Shown in pieces: positions 32,721 to 41,379 of a stretch of 64,000 nucleotides of DNA. Position 1 is the stretch's first letter; each line of letters begins with the position of its first letter. Under the pieces are notes generated by a model. That model ran no database searches. It was not told where the DNA came from and saw nothing but the letters and a program-made list of their open reading frames with translations. The translations under genes and the position numbers were made by a program. Source of the DNA: Deltaproteobacteria bacterium (GTDB taxonomy: Bacteria; Desulfobacterota; Desulfuromonadia; Desulfuromonadales; Geopsychrobacteraceae). Location of the stretch: assembly GCA_024280335.1 (NCBI GenBank), contig JAJRQI010000007.1, forward strand, positions 47,599 through 111,598, given 5' to 3'.

Positions 32721-33722
32721 TCAGCTTTTCTGCAGGTTCACCAGAGCCCGCCGCCGCAGACCGCCTTTGAGCATCGCCTGAATCTTCTCTTCAAGCCCTG
32801 CCAGGGTCACCTCCTCGACCATCGCTTCCAGTCGGTTCAGTTTCCAGTCGGTCGCCAGTTTTTGCCAGACCTTAACCCGCGGTGCTGCCGGGCATTCAGC
32901 GGAATCGATACCGATCAGCCGCACACCGCGCAGGATAAAGGGGAAGACATTGATCGGCAGATCGGGGGAACCGACCAGCCCGCAGCAGGTGACCACGCCC
33001 CAGTTGCGGGTCGACTTGATCGCTGCAGCGAGCATCTCGCCACCGACACAGTCGACCACTCCGGCCCAAGTGGTTTTCAACATCGGCCGCTCGTTCCCGG
33101 TCAACAGCGTTTCCCGAGCGATCACCCGGTCAGCACCGAGCCCCTGAAGATAGTCGCTCTCTTCCAGCTTGCCGGTAACCGCCGTAACCTGATAACCCGC
33201 CTTGGCCAGGATCGCCACTGCGAGACTGCCGACGCCGCCGGTTGCGCCGGTGACCAGAATCGGCCCCGCGTCCGGAGTTACCCCATTATCGACCAGTTCC
33301 TGCACCGACAGTGCGGCGGTCAAACCGGCGGTGCCGAGCATCATGCTCTCTTTCAGGCTCAGCCCTGCCGGCAGTTTCAGCGCCCAGTTGCTCGGCACCC
33401 GGATCATCTGGCCGAAACCACCGTCGGTCTCCATCCCCAGATCGTAGCTGGTGACGATCACCTGTTCACCCGGCTGAAAGGTGCCGTCGCTGCAGGAGAC
33501 CACTTCACCGGCAGCGTCGATCCCCGGAGTGTGCGGAAAATTGCGGGTCACGCCCGGATTTCCTACTGAAGAAAGTGCGTCCTTGAAGTTCAGCGATGAA
33601 TAGTGAACCTTGACCAGCAGTTCGCCTTCCGGCAGCTCAGCGACGTTGCGAGTGACAATGGAGCGGGTGAAAACCTTCTTTTCCGGCTGCTCCACCAGCA
33701 GCGCCTTGAATTGTTGCGGCAT
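32721..33722 (-). CDS. acuI: YhdH/AcuI-family NADPH-dependent acrylyl-CoA reductase / quinone oxidoreductase
   Basis: 333 aa zinc-free medium-chain dehydrogenase. Family features are YSSLNFKDALS (about 42-52), FPHTPGIDAAGEV (about 62-74), TGATGGVGSLAVAILAKAGY (about 153-172, cofactor loop) and GRVCG-like CCGLVGSPDLPINVFPFILRG near 258-278. Members reduce acrylyl-CoA or enones with NADPH. It is divergent from an HxlR regulator; an electrophile-inducible reductase is plausible. AGGAGGAGG directly precedes the ATG. Confidence 0.88.
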   Translation of the reverse strand: MPQQFKALLVEQPEKKVFTRSIVTRNVAELPEGELLVKVHYSSLNFKDALSSVGNPGVTRNFPHTPGIDAAGEVVSCSDGTFQPGEQVIVTSYDLGMETDGGFGQMIRVPSNWALKLPAGLSLKESMMLGTAGLTAALSVQELVDNGVTPDAGPILVTGATGGVGSLAVAILAKAGYQVTAVTGKLEESDYLQGLGADRVIARETLLTGNERPMLKTTWAGVVDCVGGEMLAAAIKSTRNWGVVTCCGLVGSPDLPINVFPFILRGVRLIGIDSAECPAAPRVKVWQKLATDWKLNRLEAMVEEVTLAGLEEKIQAMLKGGLRRRALVNLQKS

Positions 33723-33809
33723 GTGACCTCCTCCTGTTATTAAGGGAATGGATTTGACTTTATTCTTACAATTGTTATAAAACTAACGAGCACCGTCGAT
33801 AAAAACAAG

Positions 33810-33828
33810 TACCCACTTTTTTGTACTG
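33810..33828. promoter_or_regulatory. Candidate operator for the HxlR regulator
   Basis: In the 146-base gap between acuI and the regulator, inverted AGTAC and GTACT half-sites flank about ten bases around 33808-33827. A second overlapping TACT-GT-AGTA sits at 33824-33833. A TTGTAC -35-like hexamer at 33821-33826 lies inside the repeat, so binding would block the regulator's own promoter. HxlR/YodB-type proteins are known to bind TACT-spacer-AGTA sites. Boundaries are approximate. Confidence 0.4.
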
Positions 33829-33868
33829 TAGTATCTAAAAAGAAACTATTGTGTAATCTGGATCAGTT

Positions 33869-34222
33869 ATGAATGAAGATGAAAATTATCGCTGTACCGT
33901 TTCGGTTACTCTGGAGATCATCGGCGGCAAGTGGAAGTCGCTGATCCTCTGGCATCTGAGCTTCAAAACCTTGCGTTTCAGCCAGCTGCAGCGTCGACTG
34001 GTAAAAGTGACGCAGAAAATGCTTACCCAGCAGTTGCGAGAGCTGGAAGCCGATGGGTTGATCCATCGCAAGGTCTACGCCGAGGTGCCGCCGCGGGTGG
34101 AATACTCGCTGACTGAACTGGGAAAAAGTGTGGTGCCGATCCTCCAGCAGATGTCGCAATGGGGGAAAGATTATCTCGAAATAACCACGGAGCAGCCGGT
34201 CAGCGACTGCTTGGTCGACTGA
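33869..34222 (+). CDS. HxlR-family winged-helix transcriptional regulator
   Basis: 117 aa single-domain regulator. The family core GGKWKSLILWHLSFKTLRFSQLQRRL (about 19-44) and recognition region KMLTQQLRELEADGLIHRK (about 50-68) are complete. Cys9 lies in the short N-terminal helix (NYRCTVS), the position at which YodB, HypR and QorR carry their redox or electrophile-sensing cysteine. It is divergent from acuI, so it probably represses that reductase until Cys9 is modified. The other cysteine is near the C-terminus (SDCLVD). Confidence 0.9.
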   Translation: MNEDENYRCTVSVTLEIIGGKWKSLILWHLSFKTLRFSQLQRRLVKVTQKMLTQQLRELEADGLIHRKVYAEVPPRVEYSLTELGKSVVPILQQMSQWGKDYLEITTEQPVSDCLVD

Positions 34223-34237
34223 CCTTCAGATTTGCTG

Positions 34238-34732
34238 TTATTCCGCTGCGGGCGACTTTTCGGTGTTGTCCGAATCTTCTGATTGCGCCGTCACAGTCGC
34301 TTCCTTCGACAAGTCATTTTCTTCTGTCCCGTGTGCAAACTGCGGGGGCCGCATAAACACTTTGATGATCTGTGGATCCTCCAGATCGATCAATGAACGG
34401 CATTCCCCTTTGTAGCTCCCATCATCGGCCGATCGAAGCAGGCAGGCGACCTCTTTCCCCGGATTCATCTGGAAGCTCAACTGATCGTCAGCCAGCCGAA
34501 TTTCACAGAAATCAATGGCAACCCCGGCAACATTCATGGTGATTGTCAGGGAACTGTCTCTCTCGTCCGGCGCTGCCTCCAGCCTCTCGACATGGTACTT
34601 GACCGGCAGCGCCTCATCATCGGCAAAGCGGTAAGTCCCGCTCCACTCCCCCGGCAACAGCTCCGCCGCAGACAACGGCAACGGCAACGCCAAGAACACC
34701 AGACAGCAACATAACTGCAGCAGAATTTTCAT
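34238..34732 (-). CDS. Exported protein of unknown function
   Basis: 164 aa. Residues 1-22 form a Sec signal (CCLVFLALPLPLSAAE). The mature domain (about 23-135) is beta-rich, with WSGTYRFADDEALPVKYHVERL and two or three cysteines (DFCEI, VACLL, GECRS) that could form disulfides. It ends in an acidic, Ser/Thr-rich tail. No family is recognised; the opening GEWSGTYRF recalls small beta-barrel lipocalin-like proteins but that is only an impression. It is the last gene of a three-gene minus-strand operon, 19 bases after the membrane protein, with AAGGA upstream. Confidence 0.65.
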   Translation of the reverse strand: MKILLQLCCCLVFLALPLPLSAAELLPGEWSGTYRFADDEALPVKYHVERLEAAPDERDSSLTITMNVAGVAIDFCEIRLADDQLSFQMNPGKEVACLLRSADDGSYKGECRSLIDLEDPQIIKVFMRPPQFAHGTEENDLSKEATVTAQSEDSDNTEKSPAAE

Positions 34733-34751
34733 CGAGCGGATCCTTTGAGCA

Positions 34752-35831
34752 CTATGGTTCCCCCAGCTTGCCGCCTCTGGTCAGAGCCTTGATCGCATCC
34801 ATCAGATAGGGTTTATCCCGCTGACTGGAAAATTCACCCGGAAACAGGACCCCTTCGACCTTGATGGTGTTCTCATCAAAGCCAGCCAGCACCAAGGCAA
34901 AGCGCTGATTGTCGGAGAGGCGGGTATTATCGATCAACGGAAAGTTGAAATAATCGAGGGTGAACTTCAACTCCGCCGCCCGGCTGTCGAGATTGCCGTC
35001 GGCGCGGAAAGTTTCCACCGTCAGCGCCACGTCGATGGTTTTCTGCCGGTAATCGGCGTTGCTGAATTGAAAGGTCAGAATCCGGGTGATTCCGTCCTGG
35101 GTCAAGCGTGACAGCTCCAGACGCAATTCCTGCGCCAACCCTAGATCTCCGGCGGAGATCTGCTCGACCTCATCATCCGGCCAGGTATAGAACCCTTGCT
35201 CGGCGGCTTCGCTCAGCTGCACCCGCTTAAAGGGGATTTCAATATACAGCGGCTTGCCGCGCGGTTTGAGCGATGCCAGCTGGGCGCTGGCGACCCGCTT
35301 GGAGAGGCTGTGCAAACGCTTGATCAGCGCACCCTTTTTGACCCGCCAGCCCATCTGTTCATCTGCGGACGGTCTGGCTTTGCCGATATCACGACTGACC
35401 TCCAGAAACAGCGGACCCAGGCTGAGGGAATCGCCGAAGTTGAGTGCCAACATCTCCAGTTTCAGCAGCTTCTGCGAGATCAGCTCGCTGCCGAACGGAG
35501 CGCTGCCGTTGTCGGCGACACCGAACTCCTTTTTGAAGAAATCCTTGAGGATGACCGTAAACATATCCTTGCGCAGCATGCTCTCCGACTGCTCCCGCTT
35601 GCTCAGCAGTTCGGTGTAAAGGCGCGCGTTCTGGTCCATGGCGGCAATCCTGGTTACGGTGCTCTGCCCCCAGTAGCCGAGCAGGGCAATGGCCAGCGCG
35701 GTCAGCAGCCCGGCAATCGGCTTGGAGAGGATTTCAAACTTCTCCCAGCCGCTTTTGCCCTGAGGGTGTTCCTGCTGGGCAGGTTCAAGCGTCTGATCAG
35801 CAGCTTTCTGTTGCCGGCCGAGATCATCCAT
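34752..35831 (-). CDS. Membrane-anchored protein of unknown function
   Basis: 359 aa. A hydrophilic start (about 1-37) is followed by one membrane helix (PIAGLLTALAIALLGYWG, about 38-55), then a helical stretch to about 185 (with ILKDFFKKEFGV and LEMLALNFGDSL) and a beta-rich C-terminal domain (about 190-355) with LTFQFSNADYRQKTIDVALTV. It probably has a cytoplasmic N-terminus and a periplasmic body. No known family is recognised. It is the middle gene of the operon; the preceding carboxypeptidase-regulatory-like gene ends 5 bases upstream. Confidence 0.65.
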   Translation of the reverse strand: MDDLGRQQKAADQTLEPAQQEHPQGKSGWEKFEILSKPIAGLLTALAIALLGYWGQSTVTRIAAMDQNARLYTELLSKREQSESMLRKDMFTVILKDFFKKEFGVADNGSAPFGSELISQKLLKLEMLALNFGDSLSLGPLFLEVSRDIGKARPSADEQMGWRVKKGALIKRLHSLSKRVASAQLASLKPRGKPLYIEIPFKRVQLSEAAEQGFYTWPDDEVEQISAGDLGLAQELRLELSRLTQDGITRILTFQFSNADYRQKTIDVALTVETFRADGNLDSRAAELKFTLDYFNFPLIDNTRLSDNQRFALVLAGFDENTIKVEGVLFPGEFSSQRDKPYLMDAIKALTRGGKLGEP

Positions 35832-35836
35832 AATCG

Positions 35837-36169
35837 TTACCTGCGGATCAGCAACAGGCGGTCGCCGGAGACTCGGAGCATAAAGTTGGCGGCGTTGCGA
35901 TTGTCAGCGGTGTAGATATTCACCGGATTGGAAAGCCGTTGGTTGTAGTTGACGGTCAGTGCGCAGCTGGTCCGTGACGCCAGGCCGGTAATCCGATAGC
36001 GCCCGTACTGATCGACCTGCGCGTCACCGCCGCAACCGGCAGATACCGTTGCCCCGATCGGCGGGTTGTTGTTCGGGGCGATCCACAGTTGGCCATAGAT
36101 TTCCGCCGCACAGACACCACCGGCAGACAACAACAGACAACCGAGCAGCAACAAGACCCTTGACACCAT
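35837..36169 (-). CDS. Small exported carboxypeptidase-regulatory-like (CarboxypepD_reg) protein
   Basis: 110 aa from the ATG at 36169, with GGGAGG upstream. Signal peptide MVSRVLLLLGCLLLSAGGVCA (residues 1-21). The mature part, AEIYGQLWIAPNNNPPIGATVSA then QYGRYRITGL and NRNAANFMLRV, has the G-x-V and Y-x-I-x-G pattern of prealbumin-like carboxypeptidase regulatory domains, with two Cys that could pair. It heads the three-gene operon and is divergent from the TraB-like membrane gene. Confidence 0.65.
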   Translation of the reverse strand: MVSRVLLLLGCLLLSAGGVCAAEIYGQLWIAPNNNPPIGATVSAGCGGDAQVDQYGRYRITGLASRTSCALTVNYNQRLSNPVNIYTADNRNAANFMLRVSGDRLLLIRR

Positions 36170-36476
36170 CGGCAACCTCCCCCGCAATTGTGTGGAGAAA
36201 TGATTTTCTCATTAAGCTTATCCCCGGAGCGAGTCAAGTCAAGTTGAGGAAAAACTGATTTCCTTTGCTTACCGAGCAACCGGACATCTTGACTTGGACG
36301 ATTTCCGGCAGTAGGGTGCCGGGACGGACAAGTTACCCACTTCATCGGGCTATTGAGGTCACTCTGCATGGATTATGACGGCTGGAGACTGATGGCGACC
36401 CTGCTGGCCTCCGCCTCACAAAAATAGCCGCGCAAAAACCTTCGAACCCCTTCAACCCTGGTCCCGTAGACGAAAA
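36170..36476. other. 307-base divergent intergenic region
   Basis: Between the unknown operon and the TraB-like membrane gene. I see no convincing gene, repeat or consensus promoter. A TTGACT hexamer at about 36289 lacks a good -10 partner. A short direct repeat (GTCAAGTCAAGTTGAG, near 36232) is present. Confidence 0.4.
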
Positions 36477-37775
36477 ATGAAACAGTTAGCCAACCTGTTC
36501 CTCATCCTGTTCCTGGTTGCTGCCAGTTTGGGCATCGGCACCGAGTTGCTGAACCCTTATTGGCCGGACAACCCGATCGCCGAACTGCGCGACATGGCCG
36601 ATCTACTAGCGGTTCTGCTGGCGCTGCTGATCTATTTCGGGCTCGGATTTAATCGCCATCTGCCTAAGCTGATCTTTGTTTCGCTACTGACCTACCGGTT
36701 CTGGGGATTGCTCGACAGCTGGCCGCTGGAGCCGCTGATCGGCGACAAGTACCAGCTGGTTGCCGCCTGCGGTCAACTGCTGTTGGGATTTCTGGCGCTG
36801 AAACTGATCCAGCATAGCAACGGCAAGAGTTTGCTGCTGGTTCGCAGCCAGTTTGCCGGGCCGGGATTCAGCGGAGGCAATTTCTTCCGTTTCTGCCTGC
36901 TGAGTATCCCACTGTTACCGGTGGTTCTGCTGCTGCTCAGTTATTCCGCAGCCGGCAGTCTGATCGAAGAATATACCGCCGGTTTCGTCCGCCTGAAGCC
37001 GAACGGGCTGTATATGATAGAAAAGATTTATGTGCAGGGAGATAAACAGATTCGCCTGGTCAGCATGATCCATATGGGCCGGCAGGACTATTATCAAGAG
37101 CTGTCCGACTCGTTTAATGCCGGGCATACCCTGTTGCTGGCCGAAGGGATCAGCGATACGAAAGGATTGCTGAGCGACACGTTCAGCTACGGCAAGCTGG
37201 CTGACCTTCTGGGGCTGACATCCCAAGAGCAACTCAGCTTCCCCGGCCGCTTGATCGAGGCGGAACAACTTGGCCAGCCGAACCCAGACGGGACTGGAAC
37301 GCCGGACATCCTGCGCGCCGATATCGATCTGCAAGAATTTGATCCGCGCACCATCGAAGTCCTCAACGCCATCGGCCGCTATCTGCTCAACAGCCGTTCG
37401 CTGCGCAGCGGTTATCAGGAGTTCAGCGATTGGGCCGCGCAGAACGTCACCCCGGAGATCAATCGGATTGTCATGGATGACCTGCTGCAGAAGCGCAACC
37501 GGGCAGTCCTGAGTTATCTACCAAAGGGCTTGCAAAACTACCGGACGCTGGTGATCCCCTGGGGAGCACTGCACATGCCGGGGATCGAAACGGCGGTCAA
37601 GCAACGGGGCTTCGTGTTACAGGACTCGCGCGAACGGCTGAGTATCGATTTCCTCACCCTGCCCTATGAACAGTTGTGGGAGAATCTTACCGGCGCTGCC
37701 GGGAAGAAACCTACAAAGCCTCCGCCGCACTCACCCCGGCCAGATAGCCGGTCGACCAGCAAACCTGCAGGTTAA
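36477..37775 (+). CDS. Polytopic membrane protein with TraB/TIKI-like domain
   Basis: 432 aa. Roughly five hydrophobic segments fill residues 1-165. The soluble C-terminal half contains LVSMIHMGRQDYYQELSD (about 193-210), HTLLLAEGISD (about 217-227) and VIPWGALHMPGIETAVKQRGF (about 357-377). These are the GxxH, E and GALH-P-G pattern of the TraB/PrgY/TIKI (GumN) superfamily of putative metalloproteases. The last residues are a Pro/Ser-rich tail that overlaps the convergent YhiN gene by 65 bases. Neighbourhood and function are unknown. Assignment to the superfamily is by motif only. Confidence 0.65.
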   Translation: MKQLANLFLILFLVAASLGIGTELLNPYWPDNPIAELRDMADLLAVLLALLIYFGLGFNRHLPKLIFVSLLTYRFWGLLDSWPLEPLIGDKYQLVAACGQLLLGFLALKLIQHSNGKSLLLVRSQFAGPGFSGGNFFRFCLLSIPLLPVVLLLLSYSAAGSLIEEYTAGFVRLKPNGLYMIEKIYVQGDKQIRLVSMIHMGRQDYYQELSDSFNAGHTLLLAEGISDTKGLLSDTFSYGKLADLLGLTSQEQLSFPGRLIEAEQLGQPNPDGTGTPDILRADIDLQEFDPRTIEVLNAIGRYLLNSRSLRSGYQEFSDWAAQNVTPEINRIVMDDLLQKRNRAVLSYLPKGLQNYRTLVIPWGALHMPGIETAVKQRGFVLQDSRERLSIDFLTLPYEQLWENLTGAAGKKPTKPPPHSPRPDSRSTSKPAG

Positions 37776-38955
37776 AGCCGCCGGTCGGCCCGTCCAGATC
37801 GATCATCTCGCCGGCAAAGTAGAGATTTCTCAGCTGCTTCGAGCGCATGCTGCGCATATCGATATCGGTCAGCGCCACCCCGCCGGAGGTGATGATCGCC
37901 CGTTTGAAACCGCCGACCGCGCTCACCTGCAGTTGCAACCCTTTAAACATCTGCAACAATCGGGTGCGTTCCGCTTTACTGACCGAATGGCATTTTTTGT
38001 TCGGCTCGATTTCGGAGAGTCGGACAAAGAGCGGGATCATATCTTTCGGCAGCAGACCGGCCAACGACTTGCGGAAATCCTTGTTGTTGTGCGCCGCCAG
38101 TTCGCGCTGCAAGCGCTTGTCAAAAAGCTCCGCCTCCACAGCAGGCTTGAGATCCAGCCGCAGGCTTACCGGTCCATTTTTCAGGGCAGCGCGGATCGCC
38201 GCACTCATATCGAGGATGATCGGCCCGCCGATGCCGGTCGGCAGAAAGAAGGCTTCACCGAAACGTTCGGTGAGCGTTCTGCCGTTTTGACGAACTTCAA
38301 TCCGCACATTCTTCAGGTTGAAATCAATCAGTTCGACGGTCCAGTCTTCCGCCAGTTGCAGCGACACCAGCGCCGGTTCCGGGGCCAAAACCTTGTGCCC
38401 GGTCTGTTTTGCCCACTTGTAGCCATCGCCGCTGCAGCCGGTTTCCGGATAGGACAAACCACCGGTGGCAACGACAAAGTTGTCGGCGAAAAACTCACCT
38501 TTGTCGGTCTGCACGGCAACGACTCGACTCTCTGCGATCTGCAATCCTGAAACTTGGCAATCGGTCAGCAGCTCCACGCCGGTTTCGCGAATAAAACCAT
38601 CCAGCACCTTCTGTACGTCGGCGGCGCTGCCCCGTTCGGGAAAAATCCGCCCGCCCCGTTCGATGCGTAATTGCAGACCGCGCTGTTCAAAGAACTCAAC
38701 CACATCGCTCACGCCGAAAGCGTAGAGCGCAGTCAGAAAGGCCTTGCCGTTGCGACCGAAAACCTCAATAAATTTACGTGGATCTGCTTCGCTGTTGCTC
38801 AGGTTGCAGCGCCCTTTGCCGGTAATCAGTAGCTTCGTGCCGCAACGGCGGTTCTTTTCCAGCAGCAGCACCCTAGCACCGCTTTTCGCCGCAAAACCAG
38901 CGGCGAAAATCCCGGCAGGACCACCGCCGATGACGATCAGATCGTAATTATTCAT
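37711..38955 (-). CDS. YhiN/HI0933-family FAD-dependent oxidoreductase
   Basis: 414 aa. FAD-binding GGGPAGIFAAGFAAKSGARVLLLEKN (about 9-34) is followed by GTKLLITGKGRCNLSN (about 39-54), the HI0933 signature, VVATGGLSYPETGCSGDGY (about 155-173) and the C-terminal YFAGEMIDLDGPTGGFNLQVCWSTG (about 379-403). The reaction is not known; members are often called BaiN-like 3-dehydro-bile acid delta(4,6)-reductases, but bile acid activity is not expected here. It overlaps the 3' end of the convergent membrane gene. Confidence 0.9.
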   Translation of the reverse strand: MNNYDLIVIGGGPAGIFAAGFAAKSGARVLLLEKNRRCGTKLLITGKGRCNLSNSEADPRKFIEVFGRNGKAFLTALYAFGVSDVVEFFEQRGLQLRIERGGRIFPERGSAADVQKVLDGFIRETGVELLTDCQVSGLQIAESRVVAVQTDKGEFFADNFVVATGGLSYPETGCSGDGYKWAKQTGHKVLAPEPALVSLQLAEDWTVELIDFNLKNVRIEVRQNGRTLTERFGEAFFLPTGIGGPIILDMSAAIRAALKNGPVSLRLDLKPAVEAELFDKRLQRELAAHNNKDFRKSLAGLLPKDMIPLFVRLSEIEPNKKCHSVSKAERTRLLQMFKGLQLQVSAVGGFKRAIITSGGVALTDIDMRSMRSKQLRNLYFAGEMIDLDGPTGGFNLQVCWSTGYLAGVSAAEAL

Positions 38956-39177: not shown

Positions 39178-40398
39178 CTATACGGAGATTTTAACCGTCC
39201 GCGGATCGATGCCGTAAACACTGGCCAGATACTGCAAATAGCCAAGATCTTCACACATGCTCTTGCCCGGCTCGTCGGAGATTTTCGCCACCGGCTTGCC
39301 GTTGGCGGCAACCATTTTAATCACGATGTCGAGCGGGACGTTACCGACATCGTTCATCAGATCAGTGCCGATGCCGAAGGAGATCTTTGCCCTTCCCTGA
39401 AAATGCCGGTAGATTTCGATCATGCGCGGGAAATTCAGCGAATCGCTGAATACCAGAGTTTTGCTGAGCGGGTCAATCCCCATCTGTTGATACATGCCGA
39501 TCGCCTTTTCGCCCCACTGCAGCGGGCAGCCGCTATCGTGGCGTAAGCCGTCGTAGAGTTTACCGAAGTAGGGGTCGGAGAAATCACGGATAAAGGAGTC
39601 CATCGAGTAGCAATCGGTCAAGGCGATCCCCAGTCGACCGCGGTACTCCCGCACCCAACCTTCCAGCGCCGCCTTCTGCGCGTCGGCCAGCCGCGTGACC
39701 GCCTGCCAGCTCTGGAACCATTCATGGGCCATGGTGCCGATCGGCGGCAGATCCAGGGTGCGGGCGAAATGCAGGCTGCTGGTCCCGGAAAAGTGGTCCG
39801 GGAGCTGCTGTTTCAGGGTGATCAGGACCTCTTCCTGCCACTCTTTACTGGCACGCCGACGGGTGCCGAAGTCGGCAAAACTGAAACCGGACAGCACCGT
39901 TTGCGCTTTGAGCAGCTCCAGTTTGGCAGTCAGCTTTTCCCGGGCAAGCGACAGATCGATCCCGCCGCAATTCACGAAACTGTGCAGTTCACTGATAATC
40001 GCCAGCGTATAGATTTCCAGCAGGGTGACATGAATCAGCGGGCCGCGAAAACGCAGGTCCAGATCCTTGCCCTTTGGTTGTAGATGGACAAAACGCATGT
40101 CGAGACGAAAGATACGCAGGAACTCGATAAAATCCGGCTTGATAAAAGAAAACCCGGCCAGATAATCGAGTTCGTTGTCGGTAAAGGAGAGGCTGCAGAC
40201 CTGTCCCAGTTGCCGACCGATTTCCGGAATCAGCGCCGCCAGATCGAAGCCGTTGCGGTTGCGGCAGGCAAACTTCCACTCGACATCGACCGTGCGAAAC
40301 TCCGGCGCATGGTAGTAGGCCTGCAGCATGGTGATCTTGTAGAGATCGGTATCGAGCAGACTGTCGACCAGCCAGCGGTCAAGCTTGACGCCGCTCAT
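39178..40398 (-). CDS. pncB: Nicotinate phosphoribosyltransferase
   Basis: 406 aa from the ATG at 40398, which overlaps the pncA stop by four bases; the longer open frame upstream runs through pncA and is not coding. Family motifs: LLDTDLYKITMLQAYYH (about 12-28), FSFADFGTRRRASKEWQE (about 178-195), GTSSLHFARTLDLPPIGTMAHEW (about 208-230) and IGTDLMNDVGN (about 350-360). It converts nicotinate and PRPP to NaMN with ATP hydrolysis. The pncA partner supplies nicotinate. Confidence 0.95.
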   Translation of the reverse strand: MSGVKLDRWLVDSLLDTDLYKITMLQAYYHAPEFRTVDVEWKFACRNRNGFDLAALIPEIGRQLGQVCSLSFTDNELDYLAGFSFIKPDFIEFLRIFRLDMRFVHLQPKGKDLDLRFRGPLIHVTLLEIYTLAIISELHSFVNCGGIDLSLAREKLTAKLELLKAQTVLSGFSFADFGTRRRASKEWQEEVLITLKQQLPDHFSGTSSLHFARTLDLPPIGTMAHEWFQSWQAVTRLADAQKAALEGWVREYRGRLGIALTDCYSMDSFIRDFSDPYFGKLYDGLRHDSGCPLQWGEKAIGMYQQMGIDPLSKTLVFSDSLNFPRMIEIYRHFQGRAKISFGIGTDLMNDVGNVPLDIVIKMVAANGKPVAKISDEPGKSMCEDLGYLQYLASVYGIDPRTVKISV

Positions 40399-41042
40399 GC
40401 CGATTCCAGTTCGCTGCTGTCGGCGATCAGCTCGGCCCCGGCACGGCGCATGGTGATACAGGCGGTTGCACTGCTCTCGGCGGCGACGCCACGGCAAGCT
40501 GCCAGATTGACCAGCACCCGAAACCCGGCCCGCCGCAGTTGCAGGACGGTGGTTTTGACACAGAAGTCGGTCGCCAGACCGCCGACGATGACCGTCTTGA
40601 TCTGCCGTTCGCGCAGCCATTCGATCACCCCGGTAGTTTCGCGCTCGGCCAGATCCTGATAGCAGGCGCCATAGGGGTGCTTAAGCGGATCGACACCCTT
40701 TTCTATCAGCAGATCATAGGCCGCTTCCTCCGGCAAGCCGGGGAGCAGACGATTCCCCTCGGTACCGACCACACAGTGCCGCGGCCACTTGATGTCGAGG
40801 CCGGGATAATCCCCTGAAACCGGAGCCATGATCTCCTCTGCGGTTCGGGCCATCCAGGGGGCCTCGGGTGGATGACAATCCTTGCTGACAATACGGTAAC
40901 GGCCGAACTGCGCCTGTGCGTTCAGCTCGTCAACAATCTGCTCCCCTTCAGCGACCGGCAACTCATCAGGGCACAGGGGGGTAAAACCACGCTGGGGGTC
41001 GACCTCAAAACTGACCGTAGCTAACGGTTCAAGTGTGAGCAT
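40395..41042 (-). CDS. pncA: Nicotinamidase
   Basis: 215 aa from the ATG at 41042, with AGGAGG eight bases upstream. Isochorismatase-fold features: the Asp in SFEVDPQRGF (about 11-20), metal residues in SKDCHPPEAPW (about 53-63), KWPRHCVVGTEG (about 85-96), Lys in IEKGVDPLKHPYGA (about 113-126) and the catalytic Cys in GGLATDFCVKTTV (about 153-165). It deamidates nicotinamide to nicotinate. Directly coupled to pncB, giving a two-step NAD salvage (Preiss-Handler) unit. Confidence 0.92.
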   Translation of the reverse strand: MLTLEPLATVSFEVDPQRGFTPLCPDELPVAEGEQIVDELNAQAQFGRYRIVSKDCHPPEAPWMARTAEEIMAPVSGDYPGLDIKWPRHCVVGTEGNRLLPGLPEEAAYDLLIEKGVDPLKHPYGACYQDLAERETTGVIEWLRERQIKTVIVGGLATDFCVKTTVLQLRRAGFRVLVNLAACRGVAAESSATACITMRRAGAELIADSSELESA

Positions 41043-41379
41043 TTTTGCCTCCTGTCGCACCGTAAACGGCTCTTCGTGACAGAGCTATTTAGTGCATTGT
41101 ACAACAGAGCCTCTTGCAAAAGTCCGAGAATCCAGAAATCCTTCGGAACAGCCTATAAACTGGATCCCCGTTTTCACAGGGATGACGACTGATACAAGGG
41201 CCTCAACAGATTCGCAAGTTACTTTGAACCTGCCCGCCGGGTAAAATTTCGCTATGGCTGCCGCCCAGAATCATTTGCCGCATAGCCGGCACTTGCCGGA
41301 CGAAAGAAGCTGGCTATACTATTAGATTATTCTATACTTTGGCTGACAGAAGCTCTTCTTTCCCTTTTCAGAGGAAATC
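41043..41379. promoter_or_regulatory. 337-base intergenic region with repeat remnant and promoter of the diguanylate cyclase
   Basis: Contains a degenerate repeat arm at 41161-41188 (23 of 28 bases equal to 39073-39100). It also has a sigma-70-like promoter TTGCCG (41293-41298), 16-base spacer, TATACT (41315-41320), about 60 bases before the start codon at 41380. No gene was seen. Confidence 0.45.

Follow-up and report, generated by a model that had tools for sequence, protein, structure and literature searches.

What kind of system is encoded by three closely spaced genes that lie divergent from a TraB-like membrane protein gene in a deltaproteobacterial genome? The locus occupies positions 34238-37775 of the window, a stretch of 64,000 nucleotides from contig JAJRQI010000007.1 of a Deltaproteobacteria bacterium belonging to the Geopsychrobacteraceae. 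An initial annotation had read its four genes together as an envelope system with a membrane protease-like partner. The analysis described here shows that the operon consists of a gene pair, A-B, which is scattered widely, plus an optional third gene, C; it is undescribed in the papers and libraries searched. It is very probable that the A-B module is real and that the TraB-like gene is unlinked to it. The genes of the operon are as follows.

35837-36169 (to 36187 with a TTG start), minus strand: gene A, 110 residues, first gene of the operon
34752-35831, minus strand: gene B, 359 residues, one membrane helix, middle gene of the operon
34238-34732, minus strand: gene C, 164 residues, exported-looking, with cysteines, accessory third gene of the operon

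The four open reading frames (ORFs) of the locus were confirmed at their place in the window. The gaps of 5 bp between A and B and 19 bp between B and C bear out the tight three-gene operon of the initial annotation. Its description of the products as a small exported CarboxypepD-reg-like protein, a single-helix membrane protein and a cysteine-containing exported protein also holds, with the export of A and C being a call by eye from the N-termini. The order A, B, C is kept in two other genomes of the same genus, so the grouping is more than chance. The three products were said to be unrecognised and they indeed reach no curated cut-off. Pfam gives sub-threshold matches for A and the TraB-like protein alone and none at E≤1 for B and C, and none of the four window proteins matches PADLOC or PHROG at E≤0.1. 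Rfam returns nothing at the gathering score across 33500-38300, and the signals found by a promoter and terminator scan of the locus are not above those of shuffled sequence.

The case for a two-gene unit rests on the distribution of B. A scan of genome contigs with the B alignment produced 109 confirmed stretches, of which the best 80 loci were kept. In 85 of 93 B loci gene A is the gene immediately upstream, as judged by an A profile made from the ORFs at position -1 of B, and the commonest gaps are 2, -22 and -4 bases. Four genomes, judged by identical lengths of their contigs, occur twice among the 93 (L045/L066, L046/L065, L048/L127 and L049/L097), giving a distinct count of 81 of 89; locus L057, outside the 93, also has A upstream of B and brings the count to 82 of 90. 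BLAST clustering alone, with no A profile, finds an A-family member at position -1 in 54 of the 72 loci that could be mapped; every other cluster keeps a constant position in three of them at most. This neighbour map covers 72 of the 80 loci because B is displaced by an overlapping ORF in the other eight. Among the eight B loci without A, two (L134 and L136) are at contig ends. The two genes also diverge in step. Pairwise identities of A and B are correlated with a Mantel r of 0.918 over 80 loci, a value reached by none of 999 permutations, and r is 0.809 across phyla (2089 cross-phylum pairs).

B is patchily distributed. Within the phylum, 12 of the 395 genomes contain relatives, and a small upstream ORF matches the A profile in 11 of these 12, weakly in L052 (E 0.1) and not at all in L051. 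Within the order B is present in 3 of 136 genomes, all of one genus, and C in 3 of 134, the same three genomes. A B tree of 79 rows, 78 of them labelled by phylum and with the short L134 and L137 left out, spans 14 named phyla, each of which has loci holding A. The phylum label changes 24 times on this tree compared with a least possible 13 and 47.7 for shuffled labels; thus the phyla are clustered, yet far from forming one clade each. The clade that contains the window's B has 10 rows mixing five phyla, with 100% support in the Shimodaira-Hasegawa-like approximate likelihood ratio test (SH-aLRT). This pattern fits horizontal transfer of the A-B pair. No match to B was found among 72,556 plasmids; in viral contigs 17 stretches matched a search pattern for B and none was confirmed. 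The literature searched holds no description of the pair.

The product of gene A looks like a small, exported beta-sandwich of the CarboxypepD_reg type with two cysteines. Its likeliest start is the ATG at 36169, giving 110 residues; this is preferred over a TTG at 36187, which would add six residues. The ATG is preceded on the minus strand by GGGGGAGG, 6 bases upstream. The window protein scores about 17.1-17.3 bits against PF13620 (CarboxypepD_reg), under the curated cut-off of 32.3. In the family as a whole, 36 of 49 members match PF13620 at E≤0.01, the best at 1.7e-9, and 17 of the 49 match PF13715 (CarbopepD_reg_2) at the same threshold. Both profiles describe beta-sandwich domains. Unlike CarboxypepD_reg domains in general, the domain of gene A stands by itself, spanning about 90 residues after a signal-like N-terminus. 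Against the PDB the A profile matches the MpAFP_RII tandem repeats (4p99, E 4.1e-14 summed over four stretches), an RTX adhesin (5irb, E 0.00038) and, weakly, chains of SusC homologues or TonB-linked proteins (E 0.0085 to 0.075). Both cysteines are present in 31 of 49 A proteins and neither in 6, a co-occurrence with a Fisher p of 0.005, uncorrected for relatedness.

Gene B encodes a protein that none of the libraries searched assigns to a named family. The most hydrophobic stretch, residues 34-52, follows a short N-terminal tail and lies inside a long helix; a second strongly hydrophobic stretch is seen in only 2 of 74 B proteins. Lysine and arginine are more numerous before the helix than after it in 57 of the 74, fewer in 3 and equal in 14, with means of 3.45 and 1.80. 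The predicted topology is N-in/C-out, which would put about 300 residues in the periplasm, and a periplasmic location is considered likely. Ten residues are invariant in the 74 proteins (R79, E80, R87, F91, N131, F132, L141, P298, D301 and R310). The structural model built from the 74-row alignment has a mean predicted local distance difference test (pLDDT) score of 83.2, with 186 of 359 residues at 90 or above, and replaces an earlier model from 11 rows (pLDDT 64.7). It consists of a long helix (29-99), further helices (115-191) and a C-terminal mixed alpha/beta part (193-356).

The window B has no credible match in Pfam, NCBIfam, PHROG or PADLOC; an NCBIfam match at E 0.24 was judged meaningless. 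When the 74 members are compared with Pfam at E≤0.01, four families are hit by one member each, the best at 0.0011, and none is credible. The fold search proposed in the initial annotation was run on B: Foldseek matches no solved structure in the PDB and nothing in BFVD at E≤0.001. The best VIA match is a STAT-type chain (Z 8.4, root-mean-square deviation 2.7, 89 aligned residues) that covers the helical residues 86-184; such Z values are common and the match is unconvincing. STAT coiled coils, Cry toxins, CcmF, VTC and methyltransferases were rejected as relatives after fold matches. By sequence B has no solved relative either, the best being an AP-3 subunit at E 0.05.

Gene C is a sparser, optional third member, found at six distinct loci, one of them at E 1.0 only. 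It has a GEWSG motif, a C...GxC cysteine pair and an acidic tail. When a profile built from the C proteins of the three genomes of the genus is searched against 6668 ORFs, the ranks after the genus members are taken by the ORFs that immediately follow B in L144 (E 0.00035), L070 (E 0.0036, with no GEW motif) and L125. The E of 1.0 in L125 is not significant alone; the place of the ORF and its GEW.G and C...G.C features agree with C. Other proteins can occupy the same position. The exported-looking downstream protein matches CarboxypepD_reg (PF13620, E 1.9e-10 to 0.0056) in seven loci (L099, L101, L112, L131, L138, L139 and L143), and a PG_binding_1 protein follows B in L067, L068, L053 and L056. 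Many loci have no small exported-looking protein after B.

A link to peptidoglycan comes from the surroundings of B in a few loci, listed here.

L103:284-2753, L109:5258-7909 and L133:4653-7200, three Gammaproteobacteria: YkuD/LysM L,D-transpeptidase, Peptidase_M15_2 and B, head to tail
L053:2494-3213 and L056:6008-6727, two genomes of the same genus: gene with PG_binding_1 and M15_4 peptidase domains, lying downstream of B at distances of 35 and 110 bases

In the three Gammaproteobacteria B starts 41, 265 and 21 bases behind the Peptidase_M15_2 gene (called ORF starts; L103, L109 and L133 respectively), and gene A was not found. B follows the kind of pair known from clusters of L,D-transpeptidases (PF03734) and M15 peptidases (PF05951); unlike these proteins, it matches neither family. 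In L116 it follows a gene of the phosphoglucomutase/phosphomannomutase family, presumably GlmM, and in L108 an M48 peptidase gene precedes it. The wider neighbour scans took proteins of 110-700 residues, with 10 of the 80 loci, mostly close relatives of loci that were kept, left out by choice. Near neighbours (112 proteins) include three YkuD, three LysM, two PG_binding_1 and six CarboxypepD_reg members beside varied families such as methyltransferases, chorismate synthase and fucose isomerase, among the 25 families listed of 110. For the far neighbours (105 proteins), YkuD, LysM, PG_binding_1 and CarboxypepD_reg have fewer than two members each among the 25 families listed of 131. The seven peptidoglycan-linked loci probably represent three events (L103/L109/L133, L067/L068 and L053/L056). 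With about three independent contexts, a role at peptidoglycan is a lead, not a demonstration.

The reading favoured here is that A and B form a mobile two-gene envelope module with an optional C, which in the window sits in a slot between an HxlR-type regulator gene and the TraB-like gene. Taken whole, this reading is judged evenly poised between right and wrong, and its parts differ in strength. According to the proposed mechanism, A would be exported and B, by prediction, held in the inner membrane by one helix. A would then act as a small beta-sandwich adaptor binding the periplasmic part of B, and a physical interaction of the two is reasonably likely. The complex may act on the peptidoglycan layer, where it would serve wall enzymes as an anchored scaffold or regulate them, with the third slot adding a further binding module. 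The peptidoglycan role, which derives from few loci, is tentative. The most far-reaching version is speculative and on present evidence unlikely: a pair spread by horizontal transfer across at least 14 phyla, combining a new periplasmic fold with a beta-sandwich adaptor that would recruit or control enzymes for the cross-linking and hydrolysis of peptidoglycan.

Several observations weigh against this reading. The profile behind the count of 85 in 93 loci came from the position -1 ORFs themselves, and A is missing from six B loci that lie away from contig ends (L051, L103, L108, L109, L116 and L133). By title, 78 of the 80 records are metagenome bins, and the phylum assigned to some of them may be incorrect. 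The clade of the window's B also includes several long-branched rows of unsure placement, so single placements on the tree may be wrong. A net-charge test of the topology of B is indecisive, 32 against 24. The second cysteine occurs alone in 11 of 49 A proteins and the first alone in one, so that a simple disulfide between the two is less convincing. Only seven loci checked with Pfam show a direct link to peptidoglycan, and single far-neighbour matches may occur beyond the 25 families listed of 131.

The best surviving alternative, though still unlikely, makes A-B a device for signalling or assembly, with A exported as a ligand or client of B rather than belonging to the wall. A-B could for example be an envelope-stress sensor, or a factor for outer-membrane protein assembly in which A resembles the CarboxypepD_reg-type domain of SusC-like receptors. 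The weak SusC-homologue and TonB-linked matches of the A profile favour such a device, as do its stronger match to MpAFP_RII and its Pfam matches to CarboxypepD_reg and CarbopepD_reg_2. However, all folds matched by A are common beta-sandwiches that are uninformative on function. Of the 110 neighbour families, the 25 with the most matches include no receptor or sigma-factor family, although HisKA is matched by 2 of 112 neighbours.

That A-B is a cassette for defence or competition, with a patchy distribution, horizontal movement and no fixed neighbours, is improbable. The scatter of A-B over 14 phyla, its presence in a variable slot and the 12 B genomes among 395 of the phylum would suit such a cassette. 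It is opposed by the empty PADLOC and PHROG searches of the window proteins and by the plasmid and viral-contig searches with B described above. Among the 112 neighbours PADLOC gives hits to 13 families at E≤1e-10, 12 of them with one member and mad2 with four; four of the 112 match methyltransferase families and are probably the same proteins as the mad2 four.

What remains is the divergent gene itself, which with the regulator gene on the other side of the operon delimits the site.

36477-37775, plus strand: TraB/PrgY/GumN-like membrane protein gene, 432 residues, divergent from the operon; neighbour, judged to lie outside the module
33869-34222, plus strand: HxlR-type regulator gene (PF01638, E 9.6e-38); neighbour, not a module member

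The divergent arrangement given in the initial annotation is correct. The protein scores 18.7 bits against PF01963, under the curated cut-off of 26.8, and is for this reason called TraB-like only; 12 of 18 relatives match PF01963 at E≤0.01, the best at 1.3e-5. PF01963 belongs to the TIKI-type superfamily. TIKI/TraB proteins carry a pair of GxxH-type histidine motifs together with a conserved glutamate. Of the GxxH/E/GALH motifs previously noted, H199, E223, G363 and H366 are invariant in the 18 aligned sequences, and the second motif is GxxH in 18 of 18. The first is not strictly GxxH, position 196 being G in 14 (GMIH), A in 2 (AMIH) and S in 2 (SMIH), one of which is the window protein. The resemblance to the TraB/PrgY/GumN family lies in the PF01963 matches of the relatives and in the invariant H199, E223 and H366; unlike that family, the window neighbour falls under the cut-off and has about five N-terminal helices ahead of the TraB-like domain, a layout shared by its relatives. 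No relative was found in the PDB at E≤0.1. These proteins would form a divergent TraB-like branch. The last 20 or so residues of the window protein are missing from most of the 18 aligned relatives. A convergent flavoprotein gene (HI0933-like, 37711-38955, minus strand) overlaps the TraB-like gene by 65 bases, 37711-37775. Farther on, two overlapping ORFs at 39178-41060 (minus strand) are presumably a nicotinate phosphoribosyltransferase and a nicotinamidase-like protein, likely a salvage pair for nicotinamide adenine dinucleotide (NAD).

Of the 136 genomes searched in the order, 61 contain TraB-like relatives and only 3 contain B. A TraB profile run over the 93 B loci finds the gene near B in two distinct genomes only, the window and Malonomonas rubra (L045/L066), the latter with three ORFs between it and gene A. 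G077, the third genome with the operon, has the operon and the TraB-like gene on different contigs. Comparison of 21 fetched loci, 20 of them holding a TraB-like gene, shows an HxlR gene upstream on the same strand in 10 of the 20 (L045, L063, L064, L145-L149, L153 and L154), and nine of these ten have neither A, B nor C. The other ten have no HxlR gene in the fetched stretch, some being at contig ends. The interval between the two genes, 34222-36477 in the window, ranges in relatives from direct adjacency (L145 and L147) to several kilobases of differing content; it contains the operon in the window and the operon plus three more ORFs in M. rubra. Since it holds different genes in relatives, the HxlR-TraB interval is a variable slot, and the TraB-like gene is judged to be a bystander and not part of the A-B module. 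A four-gene envelope system with the TraB-like membrane protein as protease-like partner of the operon is thus largely refuted and very improbable: the gene is adjacent and divergent in the window, three ORFs away in M. rubra, and all the products are membrane or envelope proteins, but the unequal distribution in the order, the nine HxlR-TraB loci without the operon and the near absence of TraB-like genes from B loci speak against it. From the initial annotation the envelope system survives in reduced form, with a conserved A-B pair and a likely envelope location, as does the expected conservation of gene neighbourhood for A and B; the protease-like partner and its conservation alongside them do not.

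For work on similar loci, the case cautions that the divergent neighbour of a variable insertion site should not be taken as a partner. The mobile two-gene envelope module favoured here is experimentally accessible, as the operon is present in Malonomonas rubra DSM 5091, a culture-collection strain. The parts of the pair look like ordinary envelope modules. With ten residues invariant, a model of fair confidence, a fixed partner and members in 14 phyla, the B family points to an envelope function not yet assigned.

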